A stretch of DNA of 64,000 nucleotides from Acidobacteria bacterium RIFCSPLOWO2_12_FULL_66_21 (GTDB taxonomy: Bacteria > Acidobacteriota > Vicinamibacteria > Vicinamibacterales > 2-12-FULL-66-21), in assembly GCA_001767455.1 (NCBI GenBank), contig MELC01000019.1, positions 1-64,000 on the forward strand. The letters are read 5' to 3'. Positions 9,619-36,065 of this stretch are shown here, in pieces. Each line of letters starts with the position of its first letter. The stretch's first letter is position 1. The translations under genes and the position numbers were made by a program. Under the pieces are notes generated by a model. It was given only the letters and a program-made list of their open reading frames with translations, ran no database searches and was not told the origin of the DNA.

Positions 9619-9683
9619 GTGCGCCTCGGGTCGTGAGCGGGCAGGGGGCGGCGGCCGGACGTTGCCAGGATCACGACGCGATG

Positions 9684-9700
9684 ATACGGTATTACCGTAT
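9684..9700. promoter_or_regulatory. Operator-like palindrome between divergent GntR gene and catabolic operon
   Basis: ATACGGTATTACCGTAT is a perfect inverted repeat with 7-base arms and a 3-base centre. It lies in the only gap between the minus-strand operon (first gene starts at 9618) and the divergent FCD-type GntR gene. FCD-type GntR operators are typically short palindromes with a three-base centre, so autoregulation plus operon control is a natural inference. Confidence 0.65.
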
Positions 9701-10454
9701 GATCGTAGTGTCAAGCCATGCGCCCGCGGGCGCCGACACCCGGCTCCCCGTCGAGCGGTCCGTCGCCCCGCTGCGACGCCAGGTCGCCGAGCGACTCCGC
9801 CAGTCGATCATCGCGGGGCGCCTGCCCCCGGGCGCGCGGCTGATCGAGCGGGAACTGATCGCCTCGATGGGCGTGTCGCGGACGGTCATTCGCGAGACCC
9901 TCCGGGAGCTCGAGTCCGAAGGCCTCATCGCGATGATCCCCAACAAGGGACCGATCGTGCGCGAACTGACGCTGGCGGAAGCGACCGACCTCTATTCGAT
10001 TCGAGCGGTGCTCGAAGGCCTGGCCGCACGCCTCTTCGCCGCACGCGCGGACCCGTCCCACGTGGCCCGGCTGGCGCGCGCGCTCGACCTGACGGCGAAG
10101 GCGTACAAGAAGGGCGATCCCGCGCGCATCTTCGAGACCAAGGATGCGTTCTACGACGCGTTCTTCGAGGGCGCCGGCAGCGAGACGCTGTCCTTGATGA
10201 TCGGCACGCTCCACGGTCGAATCTCGCGCTGGCGGTCGCTCGGCCTCGGGCATCCGCGGCGCTCACCCTCCCGCTCGCGCGAGACCATCAGGAACCTGCG
10301 TGCCCTGGTCGCGGCGCTCAGGAAACGAGACCCCGACCTCGCCGAGCGGATCATCCGGCACGAGGTGACCCGCGCCGCGGCCGAGGTGACGCGCCTGCTG
10401 GCGGGGCCGGACGAAGAGTCGCTGGTGGACAGCCGCTCCATGAGACGACGGTAG
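9699..10454 (+). CDS. GntR-family transcriptional regulator, FadR/FCD subfamily
   Basis: About 251 residues: an N-terminal winged helix (PLRRQVAERLRQSIIAGRLPPGARLIERELIASMGVSRTVIRETLRELESEGLI) and a C-terminal all-helical FCD ligand-binding domain (TDLYSIRAVLEGLAARLFA onward). FCD regulators bind small carboxylates, often with a metal, and usually repress nearby catabolic genes. The gene is divergent from the operon at 334-9618. The start is uncertain: ATG 9699 overlaps the palindrome's last bases and would suggest an almost leaderless message; GTG 9708 is the alternative. A second FCD regulator heads the parallel cluster at 24793. Confidence 0.9.
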   Translation: MIVVSSHAPAGADTRLPVERSVAPLRRQVAERLRQSIIAGRLPPGARLIERELIASMGVSRTVIRETLRELESEGLIAMIPNKGPIVRELTLAEATDLYSIRAVLEGLAARLFAARADPSHVARLARALDLTAKAYKKGDPARIFETKDAFYDAFFEGAGSETLSLMIGTLHGRISRWRSLGLGHPRRSPSRSRETIRNLRALVAALRKRDPDLAERIIRHEVTRAAAEVTRLLAGPDEESLVDSRSMRRR

Positions 10455-21419: not shown

Positions 21420-24290
21420 CTAGAAGATCACCCGGAAGCCGATTTGCGCCGTGCGGTACTCGCCATCGGTGTGCTGCAGGTATTCGCTGCTGTTTTCCTG
21501 GACGCCGATTTCCCAGTTCGGCCGGTTGAACAGGTTGAACACTTCCGCGATGGCATCGACGGAGACGCGACCCTTGAGGGGGATGCGCTGCTGCAGTCGC
21601 AGATCCGTCCGGTTGTGCGCCGGCGCGAGGATCGAGTTGCGCGGGACGATAGTGCCGTCCGGACGCAGGCGCGGGATGAGCTCGTTCCCCTGGATGTCGC
21701 GGCGATCGCCACCGTACCTGTTCGACTGGCGAACGCCGGAGCCCTGATAGTGGATCGCGCTTGCCTGGAAGCCCTTGCCGACTTCCCAGATGACGGAGCC
21801 CGTCATGCGCTGGCGCTGGTCGCCGTCCGCCAGACTCCACTCACCGCCCATGTCCGGAGCGGTCGCGAACGGAACCGGCTCCCGGCCGCTGAACGGCCTC
21901 GGCTCGGCATCCCAGAAGTAGCGCAGCGAGTGGGTCGCCTGGGCCTGCCAGCGATTGGCGAACCGCTTCGTGATCGTGGTTCGCAGCTCCTGCACTGTGG
22001 AGCGGCCGTCCGACACGGTCGCGCTCACGACGCCCCAATTCGGATTGAACCTGCGGCTTCGGTCGCTGAACGGATAATTGGCGCCGGTCGCCGGATCGTA
22101 GGTCAAGTTGAGGTTGTCGACGAAGCCCTTTTCATTGTAGCCGTGGCTGTAGACGTAGTCGATCTGGAGGCCGACCGTGTCGCCAAACTGGTGCTGCAGG
22201 CCGATGGAGCCCTGCCAGTTGTGCGCCAGCTGCGCATACTTCGGGTCCAGGACCACTTCGATGGCATCCTGCAGGACGCATCCTGTCGCGTTGTTGTTGT
22301 TGTGGCAGAACAGCGGCTGGACCTGTGCGAAGGTCGGCAGCGGCTGGCCGTTCGTCGGGTTGGCGGTGAAGTCCGGCCGGCCGTCATTGACGTACCGGAT
22401 GAGGCTGATCTGCACGTTGCCGTTCGACTGCGTCTCCCAGCCGGATGTCGCGCCGGCGATGTAGAGTCCGGCGCCGCCGCGCACTACCGACCGATCGCCC
22501 AGCTTGTAGGCAAAGCCGACCCGCGGCTGGAAGCCAGTCTTGTCGTTGTAAGCGCCGGGGTCTCCCTTCGACTGCCACGGCAGCAGGTCGACCTCCGAAA
22601 ACGAGCCGATCTCCAGGTCCCACCGCAGCCCGAGATTCAGCGTGAGGCTATCGGTGACCTGCCAGTCGTCCTGGGCCCAGGCCGCGAATTTCTTCGAGCG
22701 GACCCAGTTGTCGAAGTCGCCGACGCCGATGAGGTAGCTGCGCGTGATGGGCGAGAGGGCCGCCAGGTTCCAGGTGTCGACGTCGTTCCACACGGGGAGG
22801 AGCGCTTCGATGTTGGCGGGTGTCGCGCCGCCCCGGGCGTCAATCTCGCCGCTCGCGAACCGCCGGTTCGCCTGGATGTGGTCGCGCTTGAGGAACTCGC
22901 CCCCCAGCCGCACGTCGTGCCGGCCCTTCGCGTCGTACGAAACCGTGAAGCTGTCGCGGATGCTCCAGTACCACTGGTCCTGGTGGCGCGGGAGGTTCTG
23001 GTTCGGCGTGATGTTGAAGTTGCTGAACCTGATGCGGGGCGACCCGTTCGTGACGCCCAACGGCGCCAGCCAGTGCTTCGACCACGTCGTGAGGCCCGCC
23101 TGGGCGAGACCGTAATTGGAGCGCCCGCCTTCGATCTCGTTCACCATCCGGTTGCTCAGGACCTGGGTGAACCTCCCGTAGGCTTCGTTGTTGTATTCGT
23201 AGTTCTTGGCCGTCCCGGACGGGTGGGCCGTCCCGCCTGTCCCGAACGGTTGGGACAACGTGCTCTTGGAGTACTTGCCCATCAGTCGGGTGTTCGCGGA
23301 CAGCTGATAGTCGAAACGAATGCCACCCTTCTTCTGATTCGCCAAGCCGTCCAGCGTGATGTTGAACGACGGGTATCGGGTGTTCCAGACGCTGGTGGTC
23401 GGTTCGCGCTCGTACTCGAAGTTGCCGAAGTAGTGCAGCTTGTCCGTCTTGATTGGCCCGCCGATGGCCGTGCTCATCTGCAGGTTGTCGATCGGGACGA
23501 CCTTTTCGTTTATCGGGTCCTTCGAACTGAACTTGCTGCTGCGGTAGTTCAACCGGGCCACGCCCGAGTGCTGGTTGGTGCCCGACTTGGAGATGATGTT
23601 CACCAGGACACCCGAGGACCGGCCCATCGTCGCGTCGAACCGGTTCGAGATGTACTGGAACTCCGCGACCATGTCCTGGCTGTACTTGGGCTGGGTGCCG
23701 GTCCCCATGTCCCTCGTCACCTGCTGTCCGTCGAGGTTGATCTGGAATTCCCGCACGTCTCCGGCCCGCCCGCGGTCGGGCAGCGGCTGCGTGACGTTCG
23801 ACGTCTCGGTCCGGCTCCCCGGGGCCAGCAACGCGAGCGCCATGAAGTTGCGTCCGGACACCGGGAGCTCCGCGACCTGCTTCGGGTCGACGTTGCCGCC
23901 CAGGGTCGACGAGGTGGTGTTGACGAGCGGTGTTTCACCCGTGACGTTCACCGTCTCGGCGACGCCGCCGGGTGACATCGGCACGTTGACGGTGACCGTC
24001 TGTCCCAATAGCAGCTGCACGCCGGACCGCGGAGCGGCCGAAAAACCCGACAGCTCGGTGGCGAGCTTGTAGGTTCCGGTGCGCACGGAAATCCGGTAGC
24101 GGCCGGTCGCGTCGGTGACCGCCACGAACGTGTTTCCCGTCGCCTCGTTGGTCGCCGTCATCGTGACGCCGGGCAGCACGGCGCCCGAGGAATCGGTCAC
24201 GGTGCCGTTGATTACCGCTTCTTGCGCATACCCGATGGCAGGAAGCGTCAGGATGGCGCAAACCAGAAGAAACCGCCTGATACCTGACAT
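21420..24290 (-). CDS. TonB-dependent receptor, Oar-like, with carboxypeptidase-regulatory domain
   Basis: A 956-residue outer-membrane protein: signal peptide (RRFLLVCAILTLPAIGYAQ), an N-terminal carboxypeptidase-regulatory beta-sandwich (VINGTVTDSSGAVLPGVTMTATNEATG...GRYRI), a plug-like region (PKQVAELPVSGRNFMALALLAPG) and a large beta-barrel ending in GFRVIF. The terminal Phe is the usual barrel-assembly signal. This architecture is abundant in Acidobacteriota and is thought to import large or scarce nutrients. The ATG at 24290 follows GAGGAGGG. It is divergent from the GntR-led cluster, and the first of three GntR-type palindromes lies 240 bases upstream, so co-regulation is plausible. 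Confidence 0.9.
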   Translation of the reverse strand: MSGIRRFLLVCAILTLPAIGYAQEAVINGTVTDSSGAVLPGVTMTATNEATGNTFVAVTDATGRYRISVRTGTYKLATELSGFSAAPRSGVQLLLGQTVTVNVPMSPGGVAETVNVTGETPLVNTTSSTLGGNVDPKQVAELPVSGRNFMALALLAPGSRTETSNVTQPLPDRGRAGDVREFQINLDGQQVTRDMGTGTQPKYSQDMVAEFQYISNRFDATMGRSSGVLVNIISKSGTNQHSGVARLNYRSSKFSSKDPINEKVVPIDNLQMSTAIGGPIKTDKLHYFGNFEYEREPTTSVWNTRYPSFNITLDGLANQKKGGIRFDYQLSANTRLMGKYSKSTLSQPFGTGGTAHPSGTAKNYEYNNEAYGRFTQVLSNRMVNEIEGGRSNYGLAQAGLTTWSKHWLAPLGVTNGSPRIRFSNFNITPNQNLPRHQDQWYWSIRDSFTVSYDAKGRHDVRLGGEFLKRDHIQANRRFASGEIDARGGATPANIEALLPVWNDVDTWNLAALSPITRSYLIGVGDFDNWVRSKKFAAWAQDDWQVTDSLTLNLGLRWDLEIGSFSEVDLLPWQSKGDPGAYNDKTGFQPRVGFAYKLGDRSVVRGGAGLYIAGATSGWETQSNGNVQISLIRYVNDGRPDFTANPTNGQPLPTFAQVQPLFCHNNNNATGCVLQDAIEVVLDPKYAQLAHNWQGSIGLQHQFGDTVGLQIDYVYSHGYNEKGFVDNLNLTYDPATGANYPFSDRSRRFNPNWGVVSATVSDGRSTVQELRTTITKRFANRWQAQATHSLRYFWDAEPRPFSGREPVPFATAPDMGGEWSLADGDQRQRMTGSVIWEVGKGFQASAIHYQGSGVRQSNRYGGDRRDIQGNELIPRLRPDGTIVPRNSILAPAHNRTDLRLQQRIPLKGRVSVDAIAEVFNLFNRPNWEIGVQENSSEYLQHTDGEYRTAQIGFRVIF

Positions 24291-24529
24291 TGAAACCCTC
24301 CTCGTCTCAACACGGACAGGTTGAACGTTCCGCGCGTCAGCGGCACGTTGTGACCGTCTGCCGGTCAATGAGTGCGTCCACCCCGCTCGGTGCCACCAAG
24401 GGCATCCGGAGATGCGACGCCGAAGGGCCGGGGGCATCGTCTGCATGCCCTGTGAGAGACGCCGCGACCACTCCGTACGCGAGCAAGAACCCCACGACGT
24501 GACGGCAACGACCTGGATGGAACCCGGAT

Positions 24530-24540
24530 TGGTTGGACCA
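24530..24540. promoter_or_regulatory. GntR/FCD operator-like palindrome, copy 1
   Basis: TGGTTGGACCA, arms TGGT/ACCA around a three-base centre, the general form of FadR/FCD-type operators. This copy is the farthest from the GntR gene and nearest to the receptor gene (240 bases upstream of its start). Confidence 0.6.
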
Positions 24541-24648
24541 CCCTACCAGCGGGCGACCGTCAATGTCAAGCGCGGACTGCCGAGGATCCGGCGCCGGTCA
24601 AGTGACGCCACACCGGGGCGACATTCCAGGAATCCAGTTGTGTTATGT

Positions 24649-24666
24649 GGTATGGTGGTTGGACCA
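24649..24666. promoter_or_regulatory. GntR/FCD operator-like palindrome, copy 2
   Basis: The same TGGTTGGACCA at 24656-24666, preceded by GGTAT at 24649-24653 exactly as in copy 3. It is 98 bases from copy 3 centre to centre. Confidence 0.65.
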
Positions 24667-24746
24667 TTCTCGCCACGATCTCCCGGCGCCTCGTCGGAGT
24701 TGCGTGTCGGTCGAGAGGTCAGCTCTTCGTGATGTCGCGCGACCAA

Positions 24747-24770
24747 GGTATGATGGTTGGACCAAATACC
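24747..24770. promoter_or_regulatory. GntR/FCD operator-like palindrome, copy 3 (extended)
   Basis: TGGTTGGACCA at 24754-24764, flanked by GGTAT (24747-24751) and ATACC (24766-24770), so the symmetry extends over 24 bases. It ends 22 bases before the GntR start codon, a classic autorepression position. Confidence 0.72.
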
Positions 24771-24792
24771 CCGCGTCACCAGGAGAACTCGC

Positions 24793-25503
24793 ATGTACAC
24801 AGCCGTTCGAGCATCCAGGCTCTACCAGCAGATCGTCGAACAGATCGAGCAGTCGATCCGCGGCGGCCAACTCAAACCTGGAGACCAGCTCCCGGCCGAG
24901 CGCGATCTCGCCGAGCGGTTCGGCGTCAGCCGAACGGCCGTTCGGGAAGCGGTCAAGGCTCTGTGCGAGAAGGGACTGGTTGAAGCGCTCCCCGGGCGGG
25001 GCACCTTCGTCATCGACGCCACCTCGCAGGTCATCAAGCAGTCGCTGGACCTGCTGGTCAACATCGGCACCGAAAAGGGCCTGGCCGTCCTCGAGGACGT
25101 GCGCGAGATCTTCGAGCCCGAGATCGCCGCCCGCGCCGCCATCCGCGCCGAACCGAAGCAAGTCTCAGCGATGCGGGACGCCATCGCGGTGATGGACCGC
25201 TCGATGGACGACCCGGACGCGTACATCGAAGCCGACCTCGATTTCCACCTGGCGCTCGCCGAGGCCGCGCAGAACCCGCTCGTGCTCACCCTCATCGACT
25301 CCATCGTGGGTCTGCTGCGCGTGCAGCGGACTCGCTGTTTCCACGCCCCCGAAGGCCCCGCGCGCGGGCAACTCCATCACCGGCGCATTCTGCAGGCGGT
25401 CGAGAATCGCGACGCGGCCGCCGCCCGGGCGGCCATGCAGGGCCACCTCGAGCAGGTTCGGGAGGACTCGCAGGCCGACGCCTCATCTGCCGCCGACGCG
25501 TGA
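24793..25503 (+). CDS. GntR-family transcriptional regulator, FadR/FCD subfamily
   Basis: A 236-residue FCD regulator. The N-terminal winged helix is YQQIVEQIEQSIRGGQLKPGDQLPAERDLAERFGVSRTAVREAVKALCEKGLV with the conserved wing LPGRGTFV. The C-terminal FCD domain includes DLDFHLALAEAAQNPL and HRRILQAVENRDAAAARAAMQGHL, whose Asp and His residues usually bind a metal and carboxylate ligand. The ATG at 24793 has AGGAG eight bases upstream. Three palindromes precede it. The stop overlaps a possible GTG start of the next gene, so it heads the catabolic operon and probably represses it until a carboxylate inducer binds. Confidence 0.93.
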   Translation: MYTAVRASRLYQQIVEQIEQSIRGGQLKPGDQLPAERDLAERFGVSRTAVREAVKALCEKGLVEALPGRGTFVIDATSQVIKQSLDLLVNIGTEKGLAVLEDVREIFEPEIAARAAIRAEPKQVSAMRDAIAVMDRSMDDPDAYIEADLDFHLALAEAAQNPLVLTLIDSIVGLLRVQRTRCFHAPEGPARGQLHHRRILQAVENRDAAAARAAMQGHLEQVREDSQADASSAADA

Positions 25504-25532
25504 TCGAGAACCAGACGCCCGGAGTGATCCCC

Positions 25533-26414
25533 ATGGCAAACCTTGGATACGTCGGACTTGGATTGATGGGCGGCGCGGTCGCCAAACGGCTGCTCGAAAA
25601 AGGCCATGCCGTGACCGGGCACAACCGCACCCGGTCGAAGGTGCAGTGGCTCGAAGCGGCGGGCATGCGCTTCGCGCAGACGCCTCGCGAAGTGGCGGAA
25701 GCCACCGATATGGTCTTCTCGATGGTGACCGACACGAAGGCGCTGCATGCCATCGTCGACGGACCGGACGGCATCCTGGCGGGGTTGAGGCCGGGCACGA
25801 TCTACATCGACATGAGCACGGTCGACGCGGCCGCCAGCCGGGCACTGTCGGTCCGCGTGGCGGCGGCCGGCGCCCAGATGCTGGATGCGCCGGTGTCGGG
25901 CAATCACATCACGCTCAAACAGGGCACGCTTGCGATCATGGTGGGCGGCCAGGCGGAGGCGTTCGAGCGCGCCAGGCCGGTCCTTCTGGACATCGGCCCG
26001 AAGGTGACCCGCGTCGGGGCGAACGGGCTGGCGCTCTCGATGAAGATCGCGTCGAACCTCGGCCTGGCGGTGCAGATGCTCGCCTTCTGCGAGGCGGTCC
26101 TGCTGGCGGAAAAGAGCGGCATCGCGCGCAGCGTGGCGGTCGAGGTGCTCACCAACAGCGTGATCGCCTCTCCGATGATCAAGTACCGCGGGCCGTTCGT
26201 CATGACGCTTCCGGACGAGGCGTGGTTCAACGTCAACATGATGCAGAAGGACATGAACCTCGCGCTCGCCATGGGCCAGCAGCTCAACGTGCCGCTGCCC
26301 ACGACCGCCACCACTAACGAGTTCCTCACGGCGGCCCGCGCCATGGGCCACGCGGACAAAGACTTCGCGGTGATCTTCGACGTGCTGGCGGAGATGGCCG
26401 GAGTGAAGAGGTGA
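25533..26414 (+). CDS. 3-hydroxyisobutyrate dehydrogenase-like NAD(P) enzyme, copy 1
   Basis: A 293-residue beta-hydroxyacid dehydrogenase. The Rossmann motif is GYVGLGLMGGAVAKRLLEKGH, the substrate motif is LDAPVSGNHITLKQGTLAIMVGG, and the family's catalytic Lys region reads SMKIASNLG. It oxidises a 3-hydroxyacid (3-hydroxyisobutyrate, tartronate semialdehyde or similar) at NAD(P). ATG 25533 has GGAG with good spacing; GTG 25500, overlapping the GntR stop as GTGA, is the alternative. The following gene is a close paralogue, evidently a tandem duplication. Confidence 0.92.
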   Translation: MANLGYVGLGLMGGAVAKRLLEKGHAVTGHNRTRSKVQWLEAAGMRFAQTPREVAEATDMVFSMVTDTKALHAIVDGPDGILAGLRPGTIYIDMSTVDAAASRALSVRVAAAGAQMLDAPVSGNHITLKQGTLAIMVGGQAEAFERARPVLLDIGPKVTRVGANGLALSMKIASNLGLAVQMLAFCEAVLLAEKSGIARSVAVEVLTNSVIASPMIKYRGPFVMTLPDEAWFNVNMMQKDMNLALAMGQQLNVPLPTTATTNEFLTAARAMGHADKDFAVIFDVLAEMAGVKR

Positions 26415-27295
26415 AGGCGGCGCTCGGGTTCGTCGGCCTCGGTCTGATGGGCGGCGCGATTGTCAGACGGCTGCTCGAGAAGGGCCACGTCGTGACCGGG
26501 CACAACCGCACTCGGTCGAGGGCACAGCCGCTCGTGGAGGCGGGCATGCGCTTCGCGCAGACACCGCGCGACGCGGCGGAGGCCGCCGACATCGTCTTCT
26601 CGATGGTGACCGACACCCAGGCCCTGCGCGCCATCGCCGACGGCCCCGGCGGCATTGTGGCCGGGCTGAAGCCGGGCAGCATCTACGTCGAGATGAGCAC
26701 GGTCGACGCCGACGCCAGCCGCGAGATCGCCGACGCCGTGTCCAGGGCCGGATGCGTGATGCTCGATGCCCCGGTGTCGGGCAGCGTCCTCACCATCCAG
26801 CGCGGCGAACTGTCGATCATGGTGGGCGGACCGCGCGAGGCGTTCGAGCGCGTCAGGCCGTTGCTCCTGGACATCGGGCCGAAAGTGACGCACGTCGGCG
26901 GCAACGGCCTCGCCGTGTCGATGAAGATCGCGGTGAACCTGAGCATCGGGGTACAGATGCAGGCGCTCTGCGAGTCCCTGCTGCTCGCCGAGAAGGCCGG
27001 CATCGCGCGCGCGACCGCCCTCGAGGTCCTGATGAACTGCGCGACGGCCTCACCGATGATCAAGTACCGGGGGCCGTTCCTGCTCGCGCCGCCCGATCCG
27101 GTGTGGTTCAACGTGAACATGATGCAGAAGGATCTCAATCTCGCCGTGGCCATGGGCCAGCGGCTCGGCGTGCCGCTGCCCTCCGCGGCGGTCAGCAACG
27201 GGATGTTCACAGCGGCCCGCGGCATGGGCTTCGCCGAAAAGGAAATGTCCGTCGTCTTCGACGTAATGGCCCGTCTCTCCGGGGTGTCCGCATGA
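26411..27295 (+). CDS. 3-hydroxyisobutyrate dehydrogenase-like NAD(P) enzyme, copy 2
   Basis: A 294-residue paralogue of the preceding gene, nearly collinear through GHNRTRS, GMRFAQTPR, FSMVTDT, MSTVDA, SPMIKYRGPF and WFNVNMMQKD. The Rossmann motif GFVGLGLMGGAIVRRLLEKGH, the loop LDAPVSGSVLTIQRGELSIMVGG and the catalytic-Lys region SMKIAVNLS are intact, so both copies look active. The GTG at 26411 overlaps the upstream stop (GTGA). The two enzymes may act on different intermediates or form a heteromer. The stop overlaps the E1-alpha start as ATGA. Confidence 0.92.
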   Translation: MKAALGFVGLGLMGGAIVRRLLEKGHVVTGHNRTRSRAQPLVEAGMRFAQTPRDAAEAADIVFSMVTDTQALRAIADGPGGIVAGLKPGSIYVEMSTVDADASREIADAVSRAGCVMLDAPVSGSVLTIQRGELSIMVGGPREAFERVRPLLLDIGPKVTHVGGNGLAVSMKIAVNLSIGVQMQALCESLLLAEKAGIARATALEVLMNCATASPMIKYRGPFLLAPPDPVWFNVNMMQKDLNLAVAMGQRLGVPLPSAAVSNGMFTAARGMGFAEKEMSVVFDVMARLSGVSA

Positions 27296-28290
27296 CCACC
27301 GAGACCCGTGCCGACCGGACCGACGAGGCCATCGACGCGGCCCGCGGGCTGGAGTTCTATTCGCAGATGGTCCACATCCGGGCCTTCGAGGACGTCGTCA
27401 ACGATCTCTACAAGCGGGCCGCGATGCCCGGCCTGGCGCACCTGTACAGCGGCCAGGAGGCCGTCGCCGTCGGCGTCTGCCAGGCCTTGCACCGCGACGA
27501 CTACATCACGAGCACGCACCGCGGCCACGGCCACTGCCTGGCCAAGGGCGCGGATCCGAAACTGATGTTCGCCGAACTGCTCGGGAAGGAAATCGGGTAC
27601 TGCGGCGGCCGGGGCGGATCGATGCACATCGCCGATCAGGAGACCGGCAACCTGGGCGCCAACGCGATCGTCGGCGGCAGCACCGGCATCGCGACGGGCG
27701 CGGCGCTGTCGGCGAAATCGCTCGGCAACCATCGCGTCGCCGTGTGTTTCTTCGGCGAAGGCGCGCTCGGCCAGGGATTGCTCTACGAGGTCATGAATCT
27801 CGCCGCGTTATGGACGTTGCCCGTCATCTACGTCTGCGAGAACAACCTGTACAACGAGTACACGCATTTCCGCGAGACGACGGCCGGCGAGATCCTGGCG
27901 CGTCCGGCGGCCTTCGGGATCCGTGCGGAGCGCGTCGACGGCCAGGACGTGCGGGCCGTGTACGCGGCCGCGTCGGCGCTCGTCGCGCGGGCACGCGAGG
28001 GCGGGGGCCCGGCGTTCCTGGAGTGTGACACGTACCGGTACCACGGGCATCACGTCGGCGACATCGACCGCGCCTACTACCGATCGAAGGACGAAGAGCA
28101 CGAGTGGATGACCACCCGCGATCCCATCGGCCGGTTCGGCGAGTGGCTGTGCGAGCAGGGGTTCGCCGCACCCGTCACGCTCGACGACATCCGGTCGCAG
28201 GCCGCCACCGCCATCGAGGCCGCGGCCCAGTTCGCACTCGACGCCCCGTACCCGGTGGCGGGCGATGTGTGGCGGCATGTCTATGCCTGA
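27292..28290 (+). CDS. 2-oxoacid (acetoin/pyruvate type) dehydrogenase E1 alpha subunit, second set
   Basis: A 332-residue ThDP-dependent E1-alpha. Typical motifs are LAHLYSGQEAVAVGVCQAL, STHRGHGHCLAKG, and the ThDP motif FFGEGALGQG followed by CENNLYNEY; the GEG variant in place of GDG is common in acetoin-dehydrogenase-like enzymes. The segment CDTYRYHGHHVGD is also conserved. ATG 27292 overlaps the previous stop (ATGA), and the beta-subunit gene overlaps its 3' end. It is paralogous to 1302-2312 but clearly diverged, so the two clusters are not recent duplicates. Confidence 0.93.
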   Translation: MTTETRADRTDEAIDAARGLEFYSQMVHIRAFEDVVNDLYKRAAMPGLAHLYSGQEAVAVGVCQALHRDDYITSTHRGHGHCLAKGADPKLMFAELLGKEIGYCGGRGGSMHIADQETGNLGANAIVGGSTGIATGAALSAKSLGNHRVAVCFFGEGALGQGLLYEVMNLAALWTLPVIYVCENNLYNEYTHFRETTAGEILARPAAFGIRAERVDGQDVRAVYAAASALVARAREGGGPAFLECDTYRYHGHHVGDIDRAYYRSKDEEHEWMTTRDPIGRFGEWLCEQGFAAPVTLDDIRSQAATAIEAAAQFALDAPYPVAGDVWRHVYA

Positions 28291-29278
28291 GACCCCTCAA
28301 CGCGAACTGACATTTGCCGAGGCCGTCCGCGAAGCGCTGGCGGAGGAAATGCGCCGCGACCCGCGGGTCGTCATCCTCGGCGAGGACGTCGCGGAGGCCG
28401 GCACCCCGTTCAAAGTCCTGTCCGGTCTCGTGGAGGAGTTCGGGAGGGCCCGCGTGATCGACACGCCGATCTCGGAGGCGGGCTTTACGGGCGTCGCCGT
28501 CGGCGCGGCGATGACGGGCATGCGGCCCGTCGCCGACATCATGTTCGGGGACTTCCTCACCCTCACGATGGACCAGATCGTGAATCAGGCCGCCAAGATT
28601 CACTACATGTCCGGCGGGAAGCTCAAAGTACCGATGGTGCTGCGCACGACGATGGGCGCGGCGCGGCGCTCGGCGGCTCAGCACTCTCAGTCGTTGCACG
28701 TGTGGCTGAGCCACGTGCCGGGGCTGAAGGTCGTTCTGCCCTCGACTCCGTACGACGCCAAGGGCCTGCTCAAGACCGCGATCCGCGACGACAACCCGGT
28801 CGTCTTCATTGAAGACAAGATGATGTTCCGGATGAAAGGCCCGGTGCCCTCCGACGACTACACCATTCCGTTCGGCGTGGCGGACGTCAAGCGGGTCGGC
28901 ACCGACGTCACCATCGTCGCCACGAGCAGCATGGTGCAGACCGCGCTCGGGGCGGCCCGGATGCTCGAAGACGCCGGGATCAGCGCCGAGGTGATCGACC
29001 CTCGGACGATTTCCCCGCTCGATCGCGGCACGATCATCGCGTCGGTCAAGAAGACCTCAAGGGCCGTGGTCGTCGACGAAGGACACCTGCAGTACGGCGT
29101 CACGGCCGAGATCGCCTCGATGATCGCTGATGAGGCCTTTTACCACCTCGATGCGCCGGTCAAGCGGCTGGGGGCGATGGACGTGCCCGTGCCCTTCTCG
29201 CCTCCGCTGGAAGACGCGACCGTGCCGACCGAGGAAGCCCTCGTCGACGTGGTCAGGGGGCTGTTCAAGAAGACCTGA
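28283..29278 (+). CDS. 2-oxoacid dehydrogenase E1 beta subunit, second set
   Basis: A 331-residue E1-beta subunit. Family motifs are LTFAEAVREALAEEMRRD, LGEDVAEAGTPFKVLSGL, DTPISEAGFTGVAVGAAMTG, GAARRSAAQHSQS and EVIDPRTISPLD. The start is ambiguous among ATG 28265, 28277 and 28283, all within the end of the alpha gene; I use 28283. The E2 partner is not immediately next but follows after the M24 gene at 30637. No E3 gene occurs in the cluster. Confidence 0.92.
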   Translation: MPETPQRELTFAEAVREALAEEMRRDPRVVILGEDVAEAGTPFKVLSGLVEEFGRARVIDTPISEAGFTGVAVGAAMTGMRPVADIMFGDFLTLTMDQIVNQAAKIHYMSGGKLKVPMVLRTTMGAARRSAAQHSQSLHVWLSHVPGLKVVLPSTPYDAKGLLKTAIRDDNPVVFIEDKMMFRMKGPVPSDDYTIPFGVADVKRVGTDVTIVATSSMVQTALGAARMLEDAGISAEVIDPRTISPLDRGTIIASVKKTSRAVVVDEGHLQYGVTAEIASMIADEAFYHLDAPVKRLGAMDVPVPFSPPLEDATVPTEEALVDVVRGLFKKT

Positions 29279-29294
29279 TTAGAGGGGAGCGCAG

Positions 29295-30629
29295 ATGGGG
29301 ATCAAGACATACGGGACGATGGCCGTCGACTGGGAGCAGCGGATCAACTTCGACCGGCTGCGGACCGAGCGTCTGGCGAAAACGCGCGCGGAGATGGAGA
29401 AGTCCGAGCTGGGTTCACTGCTCTGCTTCGACATGAACAACGTCCGGTACATCACCGCCACGCACATCGGCACCTGGGCGCAGGACAAGGCCAACCGGTT
29501 CACCTTGCTGCCGCGCGGCGATGAGCCGATCCTGTGGGACTTCGGTTCGGCCGCCCGGCACCACCAGCTGCATTGCCCCTGGCTCGGCGAGCGCTCACGG
29601 GCTGGCATCTCGATGCTGCGCGGGGCGATGTCCCCCGAGATGGGCCGCGCCGAGGACGTCGCGCGCAAGATCCGGATCGAGCTCGAGTCGCGTGGCCTGC
29701 ACAAGGAGCCGGTCGGCGTCGACATCATCGAGCCGCCCGTGCTGTTCGCGCTCCAGAAGGAGGGCCTGACGGTCGTCGACGGCCAGCCGGTGATGTCGGA
29801 GGCGCGCCTGATCAAGACGCAGGACGAGATCGCGCTGCTCAACCACGCCGCCATGATGGTCGATGCGGCGTACGACGAGCTCTACCGCGCGATGAAGCCC
29901 GGGATGCGCGAGAACGAGGCGGTCGGGCTCGTGTCCAAGGTGCTCTACGACCTCGGGTCCGAGTACGTCGAGGCGGTCAACGCGATCTCCGGCGAGCGCT
30001 GCAACCCCCACCCGCACGTGTTCTCCGATCGCGTGCTGCGCCCCGGCGACCCGGTGTACTACGACATCCTCCAGTCGTACATGGGCTACCGCACCTGCTA
30101 TTACCGCTGCTTCACGATCGGCTACGGTTCGCACGCCATGGTCGATGCCTACAAGCGCTGCCGCGATTATCTCGACGCCGCCATCGAGCTCATTCGCCCC
30201 GGCCGGACGACCGCCGAGGTCGCCGCGGTGTGGCCCAAGGCGACGGAGTTCGGGTTCCCGAACGAAGAAGCGGCGTTCGCCCTGCAGTACGGCCACGGCG
30301 TGGGCCTGGCCATCTGGGAGAGACCGGTCATCAGCCGCCTCGTGTCTCTGGACCATCCGGTGACGCTGAAGCCCGGCATGGTGTTCGCGCTCGAGACGTT
30401 CTGGCCGTCCACCGATGGCTGGAGCGCCGCGCGGATCGAAGAAGAGATCGTCGTGACCGAGAAGGGCCACGAGGTGATCACCAAGTTCCCGGCCGAGAAG
30501 CTGATGGTCGCCGGCGCGCACTACGTCAGCGTCGAAGGGCCGCTGCCGACCACGCGGGAGCACGAGAGCCCGCCGAGCGCCGATGTGATCGACATGATTA
30601 GCAAGAGCGCGCTGATCGAACAAATCTAG
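29295..30629 (+). CDS. M24-family (creatinase/Xaa-Pro peptidase fold) protein with altered metal ligand
   Basis: A 444-residue two-domain protein. The C-terminal pita-bread domain keeps Asp257 (VYYDILQSY), the His in QYGHGVGLAI, and Glu residues in FALETFWP and RIEEEIVVTEKG. The second metal Asp, expected 11 residues after Asp257, is Cys268 (YRTCYYR). It may therefore be mono-metallic or metal-free, as in creatinase; DMSP-lyase-like and hydrolase activities are also known in this fold. RBS is GAGGGGAGCGCAG. Its position between E1-beta and E2 indicates a role in the same pathway, perhaps releasing the substrate that feeds the dehydrogenases. Confidence 0.86.
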   Translation: MGIKTYGTMAVDWEQRINFDRLRTERLAKTRAEMEKSELGSLLCFDMNNVRYITATHIGTWAQDKANRFTLLPRGDEPILWDFGSAARHHQLHCPWLGERSRAGISMLRGAMSPEMGRAEDVARKIRIELESRGLHKEPVGVDIIEPPVLFALQKEGLTVVDGQPVMSEARLIKTQDEIALLNHAAMMVDAAYDELYRAMKPGMRENEAVGLVSKVLYDLGSEYVEAVNAISGERCNPHPHVFSDRVLRPGDPVYYDILQSYMGYRTCYYRCFTIGYGSHAMVDAYKRCRDYLDAAIELIRPGRTTAEVAAVWPKATEFGFPNEEAAFALQYGHGVGLAIWERPVISRLVSLDHPVTLKPGMVFALETFWPSTDGWSAARIEEEIVVTEKGHEVITKFPAEKLMVAGAHYVSVEGPLPTTREHESPPSADVIDMISKSALIEQI

Positions 30630-30636
30630 GAGGCCA

Positions 30637-31803
30637 ATGGCGACCAGCGTCATCATGCCCGCGCTCGAGATGGCCCAGGAGACGGGCAAGCTCGTCACGT
30701 GGTACAAGCGCGAAGGCGAGGCCGTCACCAAGGGCGAGATCCTGATGGCCATCGAGACCGACAAGGCCGTCATCGAAATCGAGGCGGAGGCCAGCGGCAC
30801 CCTCGCTGCCGTCCGCGCGCAGGAAGGCGACGTCGTCACTGTCGGGCACGTGATCGCGTGGCTGCTCGCGCCGGGCGAGACGGCTCCGACCGACGTGGTC
30901 CAGACGGTCTCGGGGCGCCAGACTACGGGCGCGCCGCCGCAGGCTCAGGCCGTGGCCGCCGCACAGAAGCCGGCCGGGACCGGCGAGCGTGCGCTCCTCT
31001 CGCCGAAAGCGCGCCGGCTCGCGGCCGAGCGCGGCGTGGATGTGCGTGCGGTGCACGGGTCAGGACCCGGAGGCGCCGTCGTGGCCGCCGATCTCGAGGC
31101 GACCTCACCCTCGTCCGAGCAACCGGGACAGGCCTGGCGGATGATGGCCGATCGCGTGACGGCCTCGTGGACCTCCGTTCCCCACTTCTTCCTGACCCGC
31201 GACGTCGACGCCACCGGCATGGCTGCGACACGCGCGCGCCTGGCCCTGCAGGGCCCGAATGAGGCCGGCGACAGCGTCACCTACACGGATCAACTGGTGG
31301 CGCTCGTCGCCAGAGTCATTGGGAAGCACCCGCGGCTCAACGCGAGCTGGGTTGACGGCACCATCCGGTACCACAACGAGATCAACATCGGCATCGCCAC
31401 TGCTGTCGAACAGGGCCTGGTGGTGCCCGTCATCCACGGCGCCGATCATCTGTCGATTCACGACATCGCGAAGCGGCGACGCGAGGTGATCGCCAGGGCC
31501 AAGGCGGGCCGGCTCCAGCCTGCCGACCTGGCCCAGGGCACGTTTACGATCAGCAATCTCGGCATGTTCGGGGTCGATGCGTTCAGCGCCATCGTGAACG
31601 CTCCCCAGGCGGCCATCCTCGCTGTCGGCCGGATCGCCGATCGCGTGGTGGCGCAGGAGGGCCGTGCCGTCGTCTGCCCGCGGATGACCTTGACCTTGTC
31701 CTGCGACCATCGCGTCGTGGATGGCGCGCGGGGAGCGGAGTTCCTCCGCGATCTGGCCGATGGCATCGAACACCCGGAAAACGTCAGCGTCGCGGTTGGC
31801 TGA
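30637..31803 (+). CDS. 2-oxoacid dehydrogenase E2 lipoyl acyltransferase, second set
   Basis: A 388-residue E2 with a lipoyl domain (lipoyl Lys43 in ETDKAVIEI), an E3/E1-binding domain near residues 118-155 (LLSPKARRLAAERGVDVRAVHGSGPGGAVVAADL) and a catalytic domain ending in SCDHRVVDG (His358, Asp362). The ATG at 30637 follows AGGAGGCCA, a strong binding site, and lies seven bases after the M24 stop. Together with 27292 and 28283 it makes a complete E1-E2 set; E3 must come from elsewhere. Confidence 0.94.
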   Translation: MATSVIMPALEMAQETGKLVTWYKREGEAVTKGEILMAIETDKAVIEIEAEASGTLAAVRAQEGDVVTVGHVIAWLLAPGETAPTDVVQTVSGRQTTGAPPQAQAVAAAQKPAGTGERALLSPKARRLAAERGVDVRAVHGSGPGGAVVAADLEATSPSSEQPGQAWRMMADRVTASWTSVPHFFLTRDVDATGMAATRARLALQGPNEAGDSVTYTDQLVALVARVIGKHPRLNASWVDGTIRYHNEINIGIATAVEQGLVVPVIHGADHLSIHDIAKRRREVIARAKAGRLQPADLAQGTFTISNLGMFGVDAFSAIVNAPQAAILAVGRIADRVVAQEGRAVVCPRMTLTLSCDHRVVDGARGAEFLRDLADGIEHPENVSVAVG

Positions 31804-31874: not shown

Positions 31875-33185
31875 GTGGCGCAAGGTCCTGCCAAACCGAA
31901 AGCGTTCTACAAGAAGCTCTGGGTGCAGGTGCTGATCGGCATGGGCATCGGCGTCGTCCTCGGCCACGTGGCCCCGGAAACGGGAGCGGCCATGAAGCCG
32001 CTCGGCGACGCGTTCATCAAGCTGATCAAGATGATCATTGCGCCGATCATCTTCGTGACCGTCGTCTCCGGCTTGTCCAAGATGTCGAACATGAAGGAGG
32101 TCGGGCGCATCGGCGTCCGCGCCGTCCTCCTGTTCGAGATCGTCTCGACCCTGGCCATGATTGTCGGCCTGGTCGTCGGCATCCTGGTCCAGCCGGGCGC
32201 CGGCCTGAACGCGGACCCGGCGACGCTGAACGCAGGCGCGGTGGCCGCCCAGACGAGCAGATCCGCCACTCCCCCCGGGAGCGTTGAGTTCTTCATGAAC
32301 ATCATCCCGGAGACGGTGATCGGCGCCTTCTCCACCGGCTCCATCCTCCAGGTTCTGTTCTTCTCGGTCCTGTTCGGCCTCGCCCTGCTCAAGCTGGGCG
32401 AAAAGGGCCGCCCGCTCCTCAACCTGATCGACAACCTCTCGACCGCCCTGTTCGCCGTACTGGCCTTGATCATGACCCTGGCCCCCATCGGCACGTTTGG
32501 CGCCATGGCATTCTCGATCGGGAGGTACGGGATCGGCGCGCTCGTGCCCATGGCGAAGGTCGTGGGCGCCGTCTACATCACGTGCATCCTGTTCATCCTC
32601 GTACTCTTCGGCCCGATCGCGCGGATCATCGGCTTCAACATCATGAAGTACCTCGCCTACATAAAGGAGGAGATCCTGATCGTGCTGGCCACCTCGACCT
32701 CCGAGGTGGCGCTCCCGCGGCTGATGACCAAACTCGAACACTTGGGCTGCAAGGGAAGCGTCGTCGGCCTCGTCGTTCCCACGGGGTACTCCTTCAACCA
32801 GGACGGGTCGGCCATCTACCAGATGATCTCGGTGATGTTCATCGCGCAGGCCATGAACATCCACCTGGAGTGGGGCGTCATCATGACTTTCTTCATGGTG
32901 CTGCTCCTCACGTCGAAGGGGGCCGCCGGCGTGTCTGGCTCGGCGTTCGTCGTGCTGGCGGCGACGCTCGCCTCGACCGGGACGTTACCGGTCGCCGGCA
33001 TGGCCCTCCTGCTCGGTATCGAGCGCTTCATGTCGATGGCCCGCGGCACCACCAACATGATCTGCAACGGGCTCGTGACCATCATCGTCGCCGCGTGGGA
33101 CGGGGCGCTCGACAGGGTCCAGATGGCGAAGGTACTGAACGGGGAGGTGGCCGCTGCGCCGGCCGCGACGAACGGCGTGGCGTGA
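31875..33185 (+). CDS. Dicarboxylate/amino acid:cation symporter (SLC1/DctA type), second copy
   Basis: A 436-residue inner-membrane symporter homologous to 5067-6365. Motifs are IKLIKMIIAPIIFVTVVSGLSK, ATSTSEVALP (re-entrant loop) and PTGYSFNQDGSAIY (ion/substrate site); the last differs from the NTDGTNIY of the other copy, hinting at a different substrate. The GTG at 31875 is supported by AAGGAGGAACAC. It follows E2 after a 71-base gap that may hold a secondary promoter. Confidence 0.92.
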   Translation: MAQGPAKPKAFYKKLWVQVLIGMGIGVVLGHVAPETGAAMKPLGDAFIKLIKMIIAPIIFVTVVSGLSKMSNMKEVGRIGVRAVLLFEIVSTLAMIVGLVVGILVQPGAGLNADPATLNAGAVAAQTSRSATPPGSVEFFMNIIPETVIGAFSTGSILQVLFFSVLFGLALLKLGEKGRPLLNLIDNLSTALFAVLALIMTLAPIGTFGAMAFSIGRYGIGALVPMAKVVGAVYITCILFILVLFGPIARIIGFNIMKYLAYIKEEILIVLATSTSEVALPRLMTKLEHLGCKGSVVGLVVPTGYSFNQDGSAIYQMISVMFIAQAMNIHLEWGVIMTFFMVLLLTSKGAAGVSGSAFVVLAATLASTGTLPVAGMALLLGIERFMSMARGTTNMICNGLVTIIVAAWDGALDRVQMAKVLNGEVAAAPAATNGVA

Positions 33186-33218: not shown

Positions 33219-34943
33219 ATGGCCGCTGATTACGATCTGAAAGTCTGGCGCGTGAACGTTCGTACCCAGACGGTGACGAAAGAGCCCGTTCCCGCCTCGT
33301 GGGAACGCCTTGGCGGGCGCGGGCTCCTGGCCAGGATCCTCCTCGACGAGGTCGAGCCGACCTGCGAGCCCCTCGGTCAGAAGAGCAAGCTCGTCTTCGC
33401 TCCGGGCCTCCTTGTCGGGCACATGTTGAGCGCGAGCGATCGCCTGTCGGTGGGTGCGAAGTCTCCGATGTCAGGCGGCTTCCGGGAAAGCAACTCGGGC
33501 GGCAGCACCGGCCTGCACATGACATCGATGGGGATCAAGGCGCTGATCCTCGAAGACAGGCCGACCGACCCGGCCTTCTGGACGCTCTATCTGAGCCTGC
33601 AGGAGGTTCGCTGGTCGCGGGCGGACGACCTCGTCGGCGTGGGGGTGTACGAGACCGCCCCCCGCCTGCTTGCGGAATACGGCAACAAGGTCGCCATCTC
33701 CCTCCTCGGCCCGGGCGGTGAGAACCAGCTTGGCACAGCGGGCATCCAGAACCTCGACAAGGAGCGCATCCCCGGTCGGATCAACGCGCGGGGCGGCCTT
33801 GGCGCGGTCATGGGATCGAAGCGGCTCAAAGCCATCGTCTTCAACGATGCGGGCGGCCAGAAGCCGCCCATCAAGGACCCCGAAGGTTTCAAGAAAGCGC
33901 AGAAGGCGTACACGCAGGCCGTGCTGGCGCACCCGGTCTCGCAGACGTATCGCGACTACGGCACCGCGGCCAACGTGCTGGTCTGCGACGCGCTCGGAGC
34001 GCTGCCCACGCGCAACTTCTCGTCCGGGACCTTCGAACAGGCCGAGTCGGTCAGCGGCGAGCACATGCGCGATCTGCTCCTGAAGCGCGGGGGCGAGTCC
34101 AACACGTCGCACGCGTGCATGGCGGGCTGCACGATCCGCTGTTCCAACATCTTCGGCGGCGACGATGGCAAGACGATCGTGTCACCGCTTGAATACGAGA
34201 CCATTGGTCTGCTGGGACCGAATCTGGGCATCGCCGACCTCGACGTGATCGGACGGATGAACTGGCAGATCAACGACATCGGCCTGGATACCATCGACGT
34301 CGGCGCGGCGCTGGGCGTCGCCTGCGACGCCGGGCTGATGACGTGGGGAGACAGCGCCCGCGCGTTGGAACTAATCGACGAAATCCGGCGGAACACTCCG
34401 GTCGGCCGCATCCTGGGCATGGGCGCCACCATGGCCGGCAAGGTCCTCGGCATCGAGCGCGTTCCAGCGACCAAGGGCATCGCCATGTCGGCCTACGACC
34501 CTCGCGCCATCAAGGGTACCGGTGTCACCTTCGCGACCTCGACGCAGGGCGGCGATCACACCAGCGGCCTGACGCTGCGCGTCAAGATCGACCACCGCGA
34601 TCCGAAAGGCCAGGTGGCCGCGTCGCGGACGGCCCAGATCAACATCGCCGGCTACGACACGCTCGGCGCCTGCATCATGTCCGGCTTCGGCTACGCGACG
34701 TCCCCCGACGCCGTGCGGGATCTGCTCAACGCCCGCTACGGGTGGAACATGGGCGACGATGCGCTGCAGGTGCTCGGCAAGGAGACCATCCGGCTGGAGC
34801 GCGAGTTCAACCGTCGCGCGGGATTCACCAAGGCTCACGACCGCATGCCGGAGTGGATGACGCGCGAAGCGCTGCCGCCGTACAACGTCGTGTTCGACGT
34901 GCCGCAGGACGAAATGGACAACATCTTCAGCGATCTTGATTAG
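33219..34943 (+). CDS. Aldehyde:ferredoxin oxidoreductase family protein (tungsten enzyme)
   Basis: A 574-residue AOR-family enzyme using a bis-molybdopterin tungsten cofactor and a [4Fe-4S] cluster. Cluster ligands visible are Cys300, Cys304 and Cys308 (HACMAGCTIRCSN) plus a C-terminal Cys in GACIMSGF. The N-terminal cofactor domain has LGGRGLLARILLDE, SVGAKSPMSGGFRESNSGG and INARGGLGAVMGSKRLKAI. It would interconvert an aldehyde and carboxylate with ferredoxin. The next two genes (MoaD-like and ThiF-like) fit cofactor biosynthesis, making a self-contained unit. AORs are typical of anaerobic or low-oxygen metabolism, so this is informative about the habitat. Confidence 0.92.
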   Translation: MAADYDLKVWRVNVRTQTVTKEPVPASWERLGGRGLLARILLDEVEPTCEPLGQKSKLVFAPGLLVGHMLSASDRLSVGAKSPMSGGFRESNSGGSTGLHMTSMGIKALILEDRPTDPAFWTLYLSLQEVRWSRADDLVGVGVYETAPRLLAEYGNKVAISLLGPGGENQLGTAGIQNLDKERIPGRINARGGLGAVMGSKRLKAIVFNDAGGQKPPIKDPEGFKKAQKAYTQAVLAHPVSQTYRDYGTAANVLVCDALGALPTRNFSSGTFEQAESVSGEHMRDLLLKRGGESNTSHACMAGCTIRCSNIFGGDDGKTIVSPLEYETIGLLGPNLGIADLDVIGRMNWQINDIGLDTIDVGAALGVACDAGLMTWGDSARALELIDEIRRNTPVGRILGMGATMAGKVLGIERVPATKGIAMSAYDPRAIKGTGVTFATSTQGGDHTSGLTLRVKIDHRDPKGQVAASRTAQINIAGYDTLGACIMSGFGYATSPDAVRDLLNARYGWNMGDDALQVLGKETIRLEREFNRRAGFTKAHDRMPEWMTREALPPYNVVFDVPQDEMDNIFSDLD

Positions 34944-34975
34944 GCGGCGCGGCGCCACGAAAGAGAATCGACCTC

Positions 34976-35200
34976 ATGGAGATCACCGTCCGGCTTTACC
35001 TGACGTTCCGAACCGGACGATTCCGCGTCGAGACGCGCGAGTGCCCGGCTGGCGCGACGGCGGCCGGGGTGGCGCGCGATCTCGAGATTCGCGACGCCGA
35101 CATCGGGATGGTGCTCGTCAACGACCGCCAGGCGGAATTGGAGCAGCAGCTCCTCCCCGGCGACACGCTGTCCCTGTTCCCCGTTGTCGGGGGAGGCTAG
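34976..35200 (+). CDS. MoaD/ThiS-like beta-grasp sulfur carrier
   Basis: A 74-residue ubiquitin-like protein: ITVRLYLTFRTGRFRVETREC at the start, GDTLSLFPVVGGG at the end. The C-terminal Gly-Gly is required for adenylation and thiocarboxylate formation. It starts 32 bases after the AOR gene and is followed by a ThiF/MoeB-like adenylyltransferase, so the pair most probably supplies sulfur for the pterin dithiolene of the AOR cofactor. Confidence 0.86.
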   Translation: MEITVRLYLTFRTGRFRVETRECPAGATAAGVARDLEIRDADIGMVLVNDRQAELEQQLLPGDTLSLFPVVGGG

Positions 35201-35204
35201 GCGG

Positions 35205-36065
35205 GTGGGCTCCGGCCCACGCGCGGTCGCACACGGAATGCAGAACATGGACGCATTGCGCGCGTTGCTGGCCGAGCGGGCGGATGGGGACGTGGTGGCC
35301 TGGGCCGATCACGCGGAAGTCATGCGTCGTTTCGGGCTGGACTGTCCGTCAGCCGAAGAGGCGATTCTCTCGGCCGGGTTTCTGCCTGCGCGCTATCGCC
35401 GGAACCGGCAGACCATCTCGACCGAGCTGCAGTTACGGCTGCACCGCAGCACAGTGGCGGTGGTGGGATGCGGCGGCCTTGGCGGCTATGTCATCGAGGA
35501 GCTGGCCAGGCTCGGTATCGGACGATTGGTCGCTATCGATCCCGACGCCTTTGAAGAGCACAACCTCAACAGGCAGCTGCTGTCTTCCCCGGCGGCGATC
35601 GGACAGAGCAAGGCCCAGGCTGCCGAGCGCAGGGTGGCCGACATCAATCCAGGGATTGTCGTGCGCCCCGTTGAGGTGGCGTTCTCACCGGAGACCGCGG
35701 CCGACTCGTTCGGCGGCGTCGACGTCGTCGTCGACGCGGCCGACAGCGTGCCGATCCGGCTGCAATTGGCCGACGCCTGTTCGCAGTTGAAGATCCCGCT
35801 CGTGCACGGAGCCATTGCCGGCTGGTACGGGCAGGTGTGCACGGTCATGCCCGGCGACGAGACGTTGCGGCATCTTTACGGACGGGGGTCCGAACCCAAG
35901 GGCGTCGAGGTCGTGCTGGGCAATCCTTCCTTCACCCCGGCAGTCGTCGCCAGTTTCGAGGCGGCGGAGGTCTGTAAGATCCTGCTGGAACAGGGTTGTC
36001 TGCTGCGCAATCAGATCCTCGTCATCGACCTCTTGCACATGGAGGTGGACCACATCCGGTTCTGA
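35205..36065 (+). CDS. ThiF/MoeB/HesA-family adenylyltransferase
   Basis: About 286 residues. An N-terminal helical extension is followed by the E1-like adenylation domain: VAVVGCGGLGGYVIEELARLGIGRLVAIDPDAFEEHNLNRQLL binds ATP, and VDVVVDAADSVPIRLQLADAC completes the core. The paired CxxC zinc motifs of MoeB are not seen. It should activate the C-terminal glycine of the preceding MoaD-like protein. GTG 35205 has GGGGGAGG upstream; ATG 35238 is the alternative. Confidence 0.88.
   Translation: MGSGPRAVAHGMQNMDALRALLAERADGDVVAWADHAEVMRRFGLDCPSAEEAILSAGFLPARYRRNRQTISTELQLRLHRSTVAVVGCGGLGGYVIEELARLGIGRLVAIDPDAFEEHNLNRQLLSSPAAIGQSKAQAAERRVADINPGIVVRPVEVAFSPETAADSFGGVDVVVDAADSVPIRLQLADACSQLKIPLVHGAIAGWYGQVCTVMPGDETLRHLYGRGSEPKGVEVVLGNPSFTPAVVASFEAAEVCKILLEQGCLLRNQILVIDLLHMEVDHIRF

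Follow-up and report, generated by a model that had tools for sequence, protein, structure and literature searches.

Three predicted operators of a GntR/FCD regulator overlap promoter-like elements in an acidobacterial divergent control region

Three identical 11-base palindromes lie between the divergent genes for an outer-membrane receptor and a GntR-type regulator in Acidobacteria bacterium RIFCSPLOWO2_12_FULL_66_21, and they raise the question of which protein reads them and what would follow from its binding. The window analyzed here is the 64,000-nucleotide stretch of contig MELC01000019.1 that contains this locus. An exact search confirmed the copies of TGGTTGGACCA that a first-pass annotation had reported at 24530–24540, 24656–24666, and 24754–24764. 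With up to one mismatch allowed, three copies were found in the window compared to a mean of 0.55 in shuffled sequence, and at least three occurred in 0 of 100 shuffles. Genome-wide (6,475,179 bases, 91 contigs), the window's three were the sole exact copies (3 forward, 0 reverse), and the reversed-pattern control matched at 0 places; the scan that the annotation had proposed thus returned a motif that is not common at unrelated positions. The loose form TGGTNNNACCA was found at 40 places in the genome versus 51 for its reversed control and is therefore uninformative without context; its abundance was dropped as evidence.

The features of the locus are listed below; operators and promoter elements are predictions.

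21420 to 24290, minus strand: divergent Oar/TonB-type outer-membrane receptor (OMP_b-brl_4, 2.7e-72; CarboxypepD_reg, 1.3e-17)
24530 to 24547, minus strand: predicted operator 1, core TGGTCCAACCA with promoter-side arm GGTAGGG; the minus strand reads GGTAGGGTGGTCCAACCA
24540 to 24545, minus strand: -10-like TAGGGT of the candidate receptor promoter, its last base being the first T of core 1; position inferred by consensus
24564 to 24569, minus strand: candidate receptor-promoter -35, a perfect TTGACA, separated by 18 bp from the -10-like hexamer; same element in relatives
24649 to 24666, plus strand: predicted operator 2, GGTATGGTGGTTGGACCA; best match to the position weight matrix (PWM) in the window, score 20.2
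24747 to 24770, plus strand: predicted operator 3, GGTATGATGGTTGGACCA with right arm ATACC one base off register; PWM score 19.6
24793 to 25503, plus strand: GntR/FCD regulator (P0001, 236 aa; Pfam GntR 2.2e-24, FCD 2.7e-27)
25500 to 26414 and 26411 to 27295, plus strand: two tandem 3-hydroxyisobutyrate-dehydrogenase (HIBADH)-type genes
27292 to 28290, plus strand: E1 alpha (Pfam)
28265 to 29278, plus strand: E1 beta (Pfam)
29295 to 30629, plus strand: M24-family enzyme (Pfam)
30637 to 31803, plus strand: E2 (Pfam)
31875 to 33185, plus strand: DctA-type dicarboxylate symporter, downstream of E2 in some relatives and probably the end of the conserved operon

The GGTAT that copies 2 and 3 had been said to share is present immediately 5' of both. 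The 24-base symmetry claimed for copy 3 (24747–24770) holds if a one-base arm offset is allowed; as an exact symmetry it fails, the right ATACC arm lying one base nearer to the core than the left GGTAT. Copy 1 carries its arm on the other strand (24547 down to 24530), so that a promoter-side arm is found in all three copies.

The protein encoded at 24793–25503, whose gene is preceded by a Shine-Dalgarno-like AGGAGA, is a member of the FadR/FCD subfamily of the GntR family. Its N-terminus is a GntR winged helix (PF00392, 2.2e-24, residues 10–73) and its C-terminus an FCD domain (PF07729, 2.7e-27, residues 102–220). The best NCBIfam match was NanR, far below cut-off (160.7 bits vs. 260), and the nearest solved structure was NanR 6on4 (1.9e-33 with an alignment, 1.1e-24 with the sequence alone). 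The protein also scored below the cut-offs of the FadR models (FadR_C 21.3 bits vs. 23.6; NCBIfam FadR 61.8 vs. 189) and of the NCBIfam models for PdhR (103.5 vs. 330) and LldR (129.7 vs. 311). Residues D148, H152, H196, and H218 are invariant in eight orthologues and align with D/H residues of 2di3, which we take to be metal ligands (the Asp-x3-His, His, His of FCD domains). Equally invariant in these eight are R37, R47, and R51 of the winged helix, matched by motif to what we take to be Arg35, Arg45, and Arg49 of FadR. Arginines of FadR-type winged helices contact G or the backbone, according to PMC4494728.

Orthologues of the regulator with 61–69% identity were found at 80 loci of public genomes, with titles nearly all from Acidobacteria, Terriglobia, or Terriglobales, and in a few further genomes. 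The distribution is patchy (10 of 396 sampled genomes of the phylum, 4 of 193 of the class). Contig C230 of genome G467 (L111, L112) carries two copies of the regulator, each with operators, at a distance of approximately 28 kb from one another. The stretch 27292–31803 is a 2-oxoacid dehydrogenase-type operon conserved beside the regulator, and most loci that are long enough keep the order receptor (divergent) / GntR – HIBADH – E1 alpha – E1 beta – M24 – E2, followed in some by DctA. The divergent gene differs from the receptor in part of the loci, and relatives readable through by tblastn have one HIBADH-type gene versus the two in tandem here. Immediately downstream of DctA, the window encodes a tungsten-type aldehyde ferredoxin oxidoreductase (AFOR_N/AFOR_C) and a ThiF/MoeB-type adenylyltransferase (33219–36065); these were not seen as neighbors in the loci of relatives, although most of those loci stop short of this position. 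Assignment of a pathway substrate was given up: the M24 enzyme resembles DddP at a score below cut-off (117 bits vs. 600; nearest solved chain 4s00, 1.4e-22), and the reductases resemble tartronate semialdehyde reductase and HIBADH, likewise below cut-off.

Conservation of the palindromes was assessed in 90 loci (the 80 from public genomes and 10 others, the window included), of which 86 were kept after removal of near-identical upstream regions; many loci come from close relatives, so that locus and site counts are not independent. The 11-mer that the first-pass annotation had seen is the core of a longer element, with the consensus GGTATAG-TGGT-YNR-ACCA-CTATACC over the window and the 89 other regulator loci: a TGGT-N3-ACCA core flanked by outer GGTAT arms exactly 8 bp out. 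An exact core stands within 500 bp upstream of the regulator in 38 of the 90 loci and is absent from 52; two of the 90 have shorter upstream regions. In the 86 non-redundant loci, TGGT-N3-ACCA occurs 41 times in 34,211 bp of upstream sequence (38 without the window's three) versus 24 times in the remaining 812,841 bp. This approximately 40-fold enrichment tops all 96 four-base palindromes tried, and among spacers of 0–8 the best was 3, with a smaller peak at 6.

The outer GGT and ACC arms appear on both sides of the core in an unsymmetrized profile of 41 distinct sites. With the window's three left out, 32 of the 38 exact upstream sites have an arm at exactly 8 bp, 10 of them on both sides; arms at adjoining distances are close to zero. 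A symmetric PWM, iterated on the same loci with the window included and without hold-out, yielded 166 sites in 77 of the 86 loci at a threshold set from shuffled upstream regions; three separate sites above a score of 13 were found in 26 of the 86 and none above it in 10. In genomes of genus g70 the arms are degenerate. Another strong inverted repeat of the window, ATACGGTATTACCGTAT at 9680–9704, matched the PWM weakly and is not of this operator type. Of the 36 comparison sites examined for arms, 14 had them: 13 lie 0.6–1.8 kb upstream of the regulator in orthologue loci, with an aldehyde dehydrogenase in between in all five loci checked, and the fourteenth is, by subtraction, a site on contig C37 of the window's own genome. 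The comparison set thus included probable real operators.

A standard promoter scan of 24250–24850 found none; the promoter assignments consequently rest on hand-read elements and on their conservation. In all three window copies, the final T of a -10-like hexamer is also the first base of the core, and the hexamer overlaps the arm. The candidate promoter at copy 1 lies approximately 240 bases from the receptor start codon, placed at 24290 for the GAGGAGGG just upstream and a signal-peptide-like N-terminus. An extended -10-like TGG-TATGGT, oriented towards the regulator, overlaps the arm of operator 2, and operator 3 has a -10-like TATGAT at 24749–24754 with a candidate -35 TTCGTG at 17 bp. 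Neither copy 2 nor copy 3 has a good -35, and copy 2 would rely on its extended -10.

Across the relatives, the TTG of a -35 lies 16–18 bp from the arm hexamer at 34 of 37 receptor-side sites, compared to 0, 35%, and 8% at other spacings. Their receptor-side order is TTGAC(A/T) – N16 – GGTATGGC – core – ribosome site – ATG; what separates these elements varies in sequence, and the order TTGAC..-N16-GGTA.GG.-core is common to window and relatives. A similar -35–operator order is found on the divergent side of two G467 copies of the locus and of the locus in genome G240, where the -35 is TTGACA or TTGTCA and the spacing differs slightly. Of 62 regulator-proximal sites, 55 have an arm that reads TAnnnT in the direction of the regulator and 6 have one that reads so in the opposite direction, and the -35 is weakly enriched (TTG 20% vs. 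0–5% at other spacings). On these grounds the predicted fusion of copy 1 to a promoter is firm, and that of copies 2 and 3 is put forward with moderate confidence. In genome G007 (L017:1470-1510) the regulator ATG directly follows the operator core, TGGTCATACCAATG, which suggests a leaderless or nearly leaderless regulator mRNA.

The palindromes are very probably binding sites of the regulator encoded beside them, and we predict with good confidence that they are its operators, each fused to a promoter and acting by occlusion. In this arrangement the core TGGT-N3-ACCA starts on the last base of the -10-like hexamer, most of which lies within the outer arm, a GGTAT or GGTAG placed 8 bp from the inner GGT. 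Copy 1 would control the divergent receptor (TTGACA, 18 bp, TAGGGT), and copies 2 and 3 the gene for the regulator together with the catabolic operon that follows it. A dimer of the regulator bound to the core, and probably touching the arm as well, would keep RNA polymerase off the -10 and the putative start region, and would in this way repress the regulator itself, the operon, and the receptor. A metabolite of the pathway, probably a carboxylic acid in the FCD pocket, would most likely lift this autoregulated repression. The motif follows the regulator across its relatives, as expected if the sites are FadR/FCD-type operators of the adjacent gene, and the conserved receptor-side promoter with its operator supports the proposed tie of receptor and catabolic operon to one regulator; both suggestions of the first-pass annotation are upheld to this extent.

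Its further suggestion, looping between distant sites, is not borne out by the site spacing. A looped or multi-site complex, or activation, might operate instead of simple occlusion at each promoter: three sites share one region here, as three above a score of 13 do in 26 of the 86 loci, the 126 bp between copies 1 and 2 amount to nearly 12 helical turns, and FadR-type regulators can activate from some positions. However, distal–middle spacings showed no helical phasing over 35 loci (R 0.10, p ~0.7), the phasing of middle–proximal spacings lost its significance when each distinct spacing entered a single time (p ~0.14), and copies 2 and 3 are 98 bp, or 9.3 turns, apart. Moreover, each site sits on a -10-like hexamer and not at -40 or further. 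Looping with helical phasing was therefore rejected, and we regard a looped or activating complex in general as unlikely.

The occlusion reading assigns the sites to the adjacent regulator, and another FCD protein of the same genome could be their reader. The candidate would be a 36–37% identical paralogue on contig C75, which has its own TGGTCTAACCA upstream and so may read a similar core. That site is, however, without GGTAT arms, the armed operator tracks the orthologues of the window's regulator across loci, and all three window copies flank this regulator only, which makes such an assignment quite improbable. Least credible of all is that the copies are chance or recently duplicated promoter sequence: although the arm is itself -10-like and the cores are identical down to their centers, as duplication would give, the flanks of the three copies differ, relatives keep core and arms while the surroundings and the core center vary, and the far-side ACC arm, needless for a promoter, is conserved too.

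Occlusion by the adjacent regulator may extend beyond this locus. The half-element GGTATRGTGGTNNNACCA with up to one mismatch occurs at four places in the genome, the three window sites and C37:6850; with up to two mismatches there are 10 places versus 6 for the reversed control. One of these, C37:12576 (2 mismatches), lies 5.7 kb from C37:6850 and is also matched by the full 25-mer. The two C37 sites precede genes of a single block (L129:3723-12553) by 81 and 16 bases; the block encodes an AAA/MoxR-type ATPase, DUF58 and VWA proteins, and a protein of 581 aa that has a weak LVIVD match and a Tat-like start. This MoxR/DUF58/VWA block appears to be under the same operator as the window's regulator and part of one regulon. 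A syntenic block on contig C239 of G240, a genome that has the regulator, carries sites at corresponding places, and the 581-aa protein shares ~38–39% identity with the product of the divergent gene in eight orthologue loci, seven of which are listed with armed operators beyond the aldehyde dehydrogenase position. After the C37 and G240 sites had been found, we dropped the idea of a regulon confined to the window's intergenic region. Three genes of the window have relatives beside the block in G240 (L130, L131): M24a (79%), whose relative stands behind a predicted operator, the amidohydrolase (66%), and the FAD amine oxidase (88%).

The exact half-element was found in 3 of the 396 phylum genomes, and two of these three carry the regulator. 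Among 22 chosen genomes, it occurred with up to one mismatch in 5 of 11 with the regulator and in 0 of 11 without; the total of 13 matches equals that of the reversed control, which spreads over both groups, so that pattern and control differ in distribution and location only.

Operators of FadR-subfamily (FCD) regulators consist of TKGT/ACMA boxes with accessory half-sites (Suvorova et al., 2015; PMC4494728). Those at the present locus are a new member of this class. Features shared with the operators of that source are a TGGT-N3-ACCA core, a location in a divergon containing the gene of the regulator, and additional half-sites 7–12 nt from the center; the N3 spacing between GT and AC is likewise that of E. 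coli PdhR, LldR, and FadR operators, although the window's regulator scores far below the corresponding NCBIfam cut-offs. The palindromic core TNGT-N3-ACNA that is typical of the subfamily is present upstream of the regulator gene. In contrast to the operators described in PMC4494728, the extra half-site here keeps one fixed distance (8 bp between GGT units, 10–12 nt from the center), often flanks the core left and right, and falls on a -10-like hexamer where it faces the promoter. The unusual trait is a NanR-like 8-bp repeat. GGT-GGT direct repeats peak at a period of 8 (3.71 per kb upstream vs. 0.40 elsewhere), and three GGT in a row at this period occur 21 times upstream in relatives versus twice in 812.8 kb elsewhere; at periods of 6, 7, 9, 10, and 11 no such triple was found upstream of regulators. 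Cores of the TGGT-N3-ACCA type are also characteristic of the E. coli operators of PdhR, LldR, and FadR.

NanR of E. coli, the closest solved relative, occupies its three GGTATA repeats with three dimers, which bind cooperatively by means of a 32-residue N-terminal extension (PMC8012715). The present operators share with it the GGTAT units and, in part of the relatives, the period-8 GGT triples; unlike the purely direct repeat (GGTATA)3, they have a palindromic core. The extension is absent, the winged helix of our regulator beginning at residue 10, the triple GGTATA direct repeat is absent from the window, and no sialic acid genes were recognized beside the window's regulator. In the literature on Acidobacteria GntR operators and TonB regulons, on FadR-subfamily GGTATA half-sites, and on the gene cluster, we found no description of the armed operator.

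The locus is a well-supported new case of a familiar type of bacterial switch. More tentatively, and as a possibility to which we would not yet commit, the orthologue group may use a mixed code in which a FadR-type inverted core and NanR-type direct repeats are built from one GGTAT unit repeated on a grid of 8 bp, the unit nearest the promoter also serving as the -10. It might then represent a living intermediate between palindromic and direct-repeat operators, take up extra dimers without the NanR extension, and govern a scattered regulon of receptor, 2-oxoacid dehydrogenase operon, Tat-exported LVIVD protein, and MoxR/VWA operon. The operator illustrates how both operator types of FCD regulators, the inverted core and the direct repeat, could be assembled from a single unit. 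One protein could switch on an outer-membrane receptor and a breakdown operon together, and linking the Oar/TonB-type receptor with a single catabolic operon would narrow the search for its substrate. The orthologues being mostly in Acidobacteriota records, the finding would offer a concrete regulon for a bacterial group with little-studied gene control.
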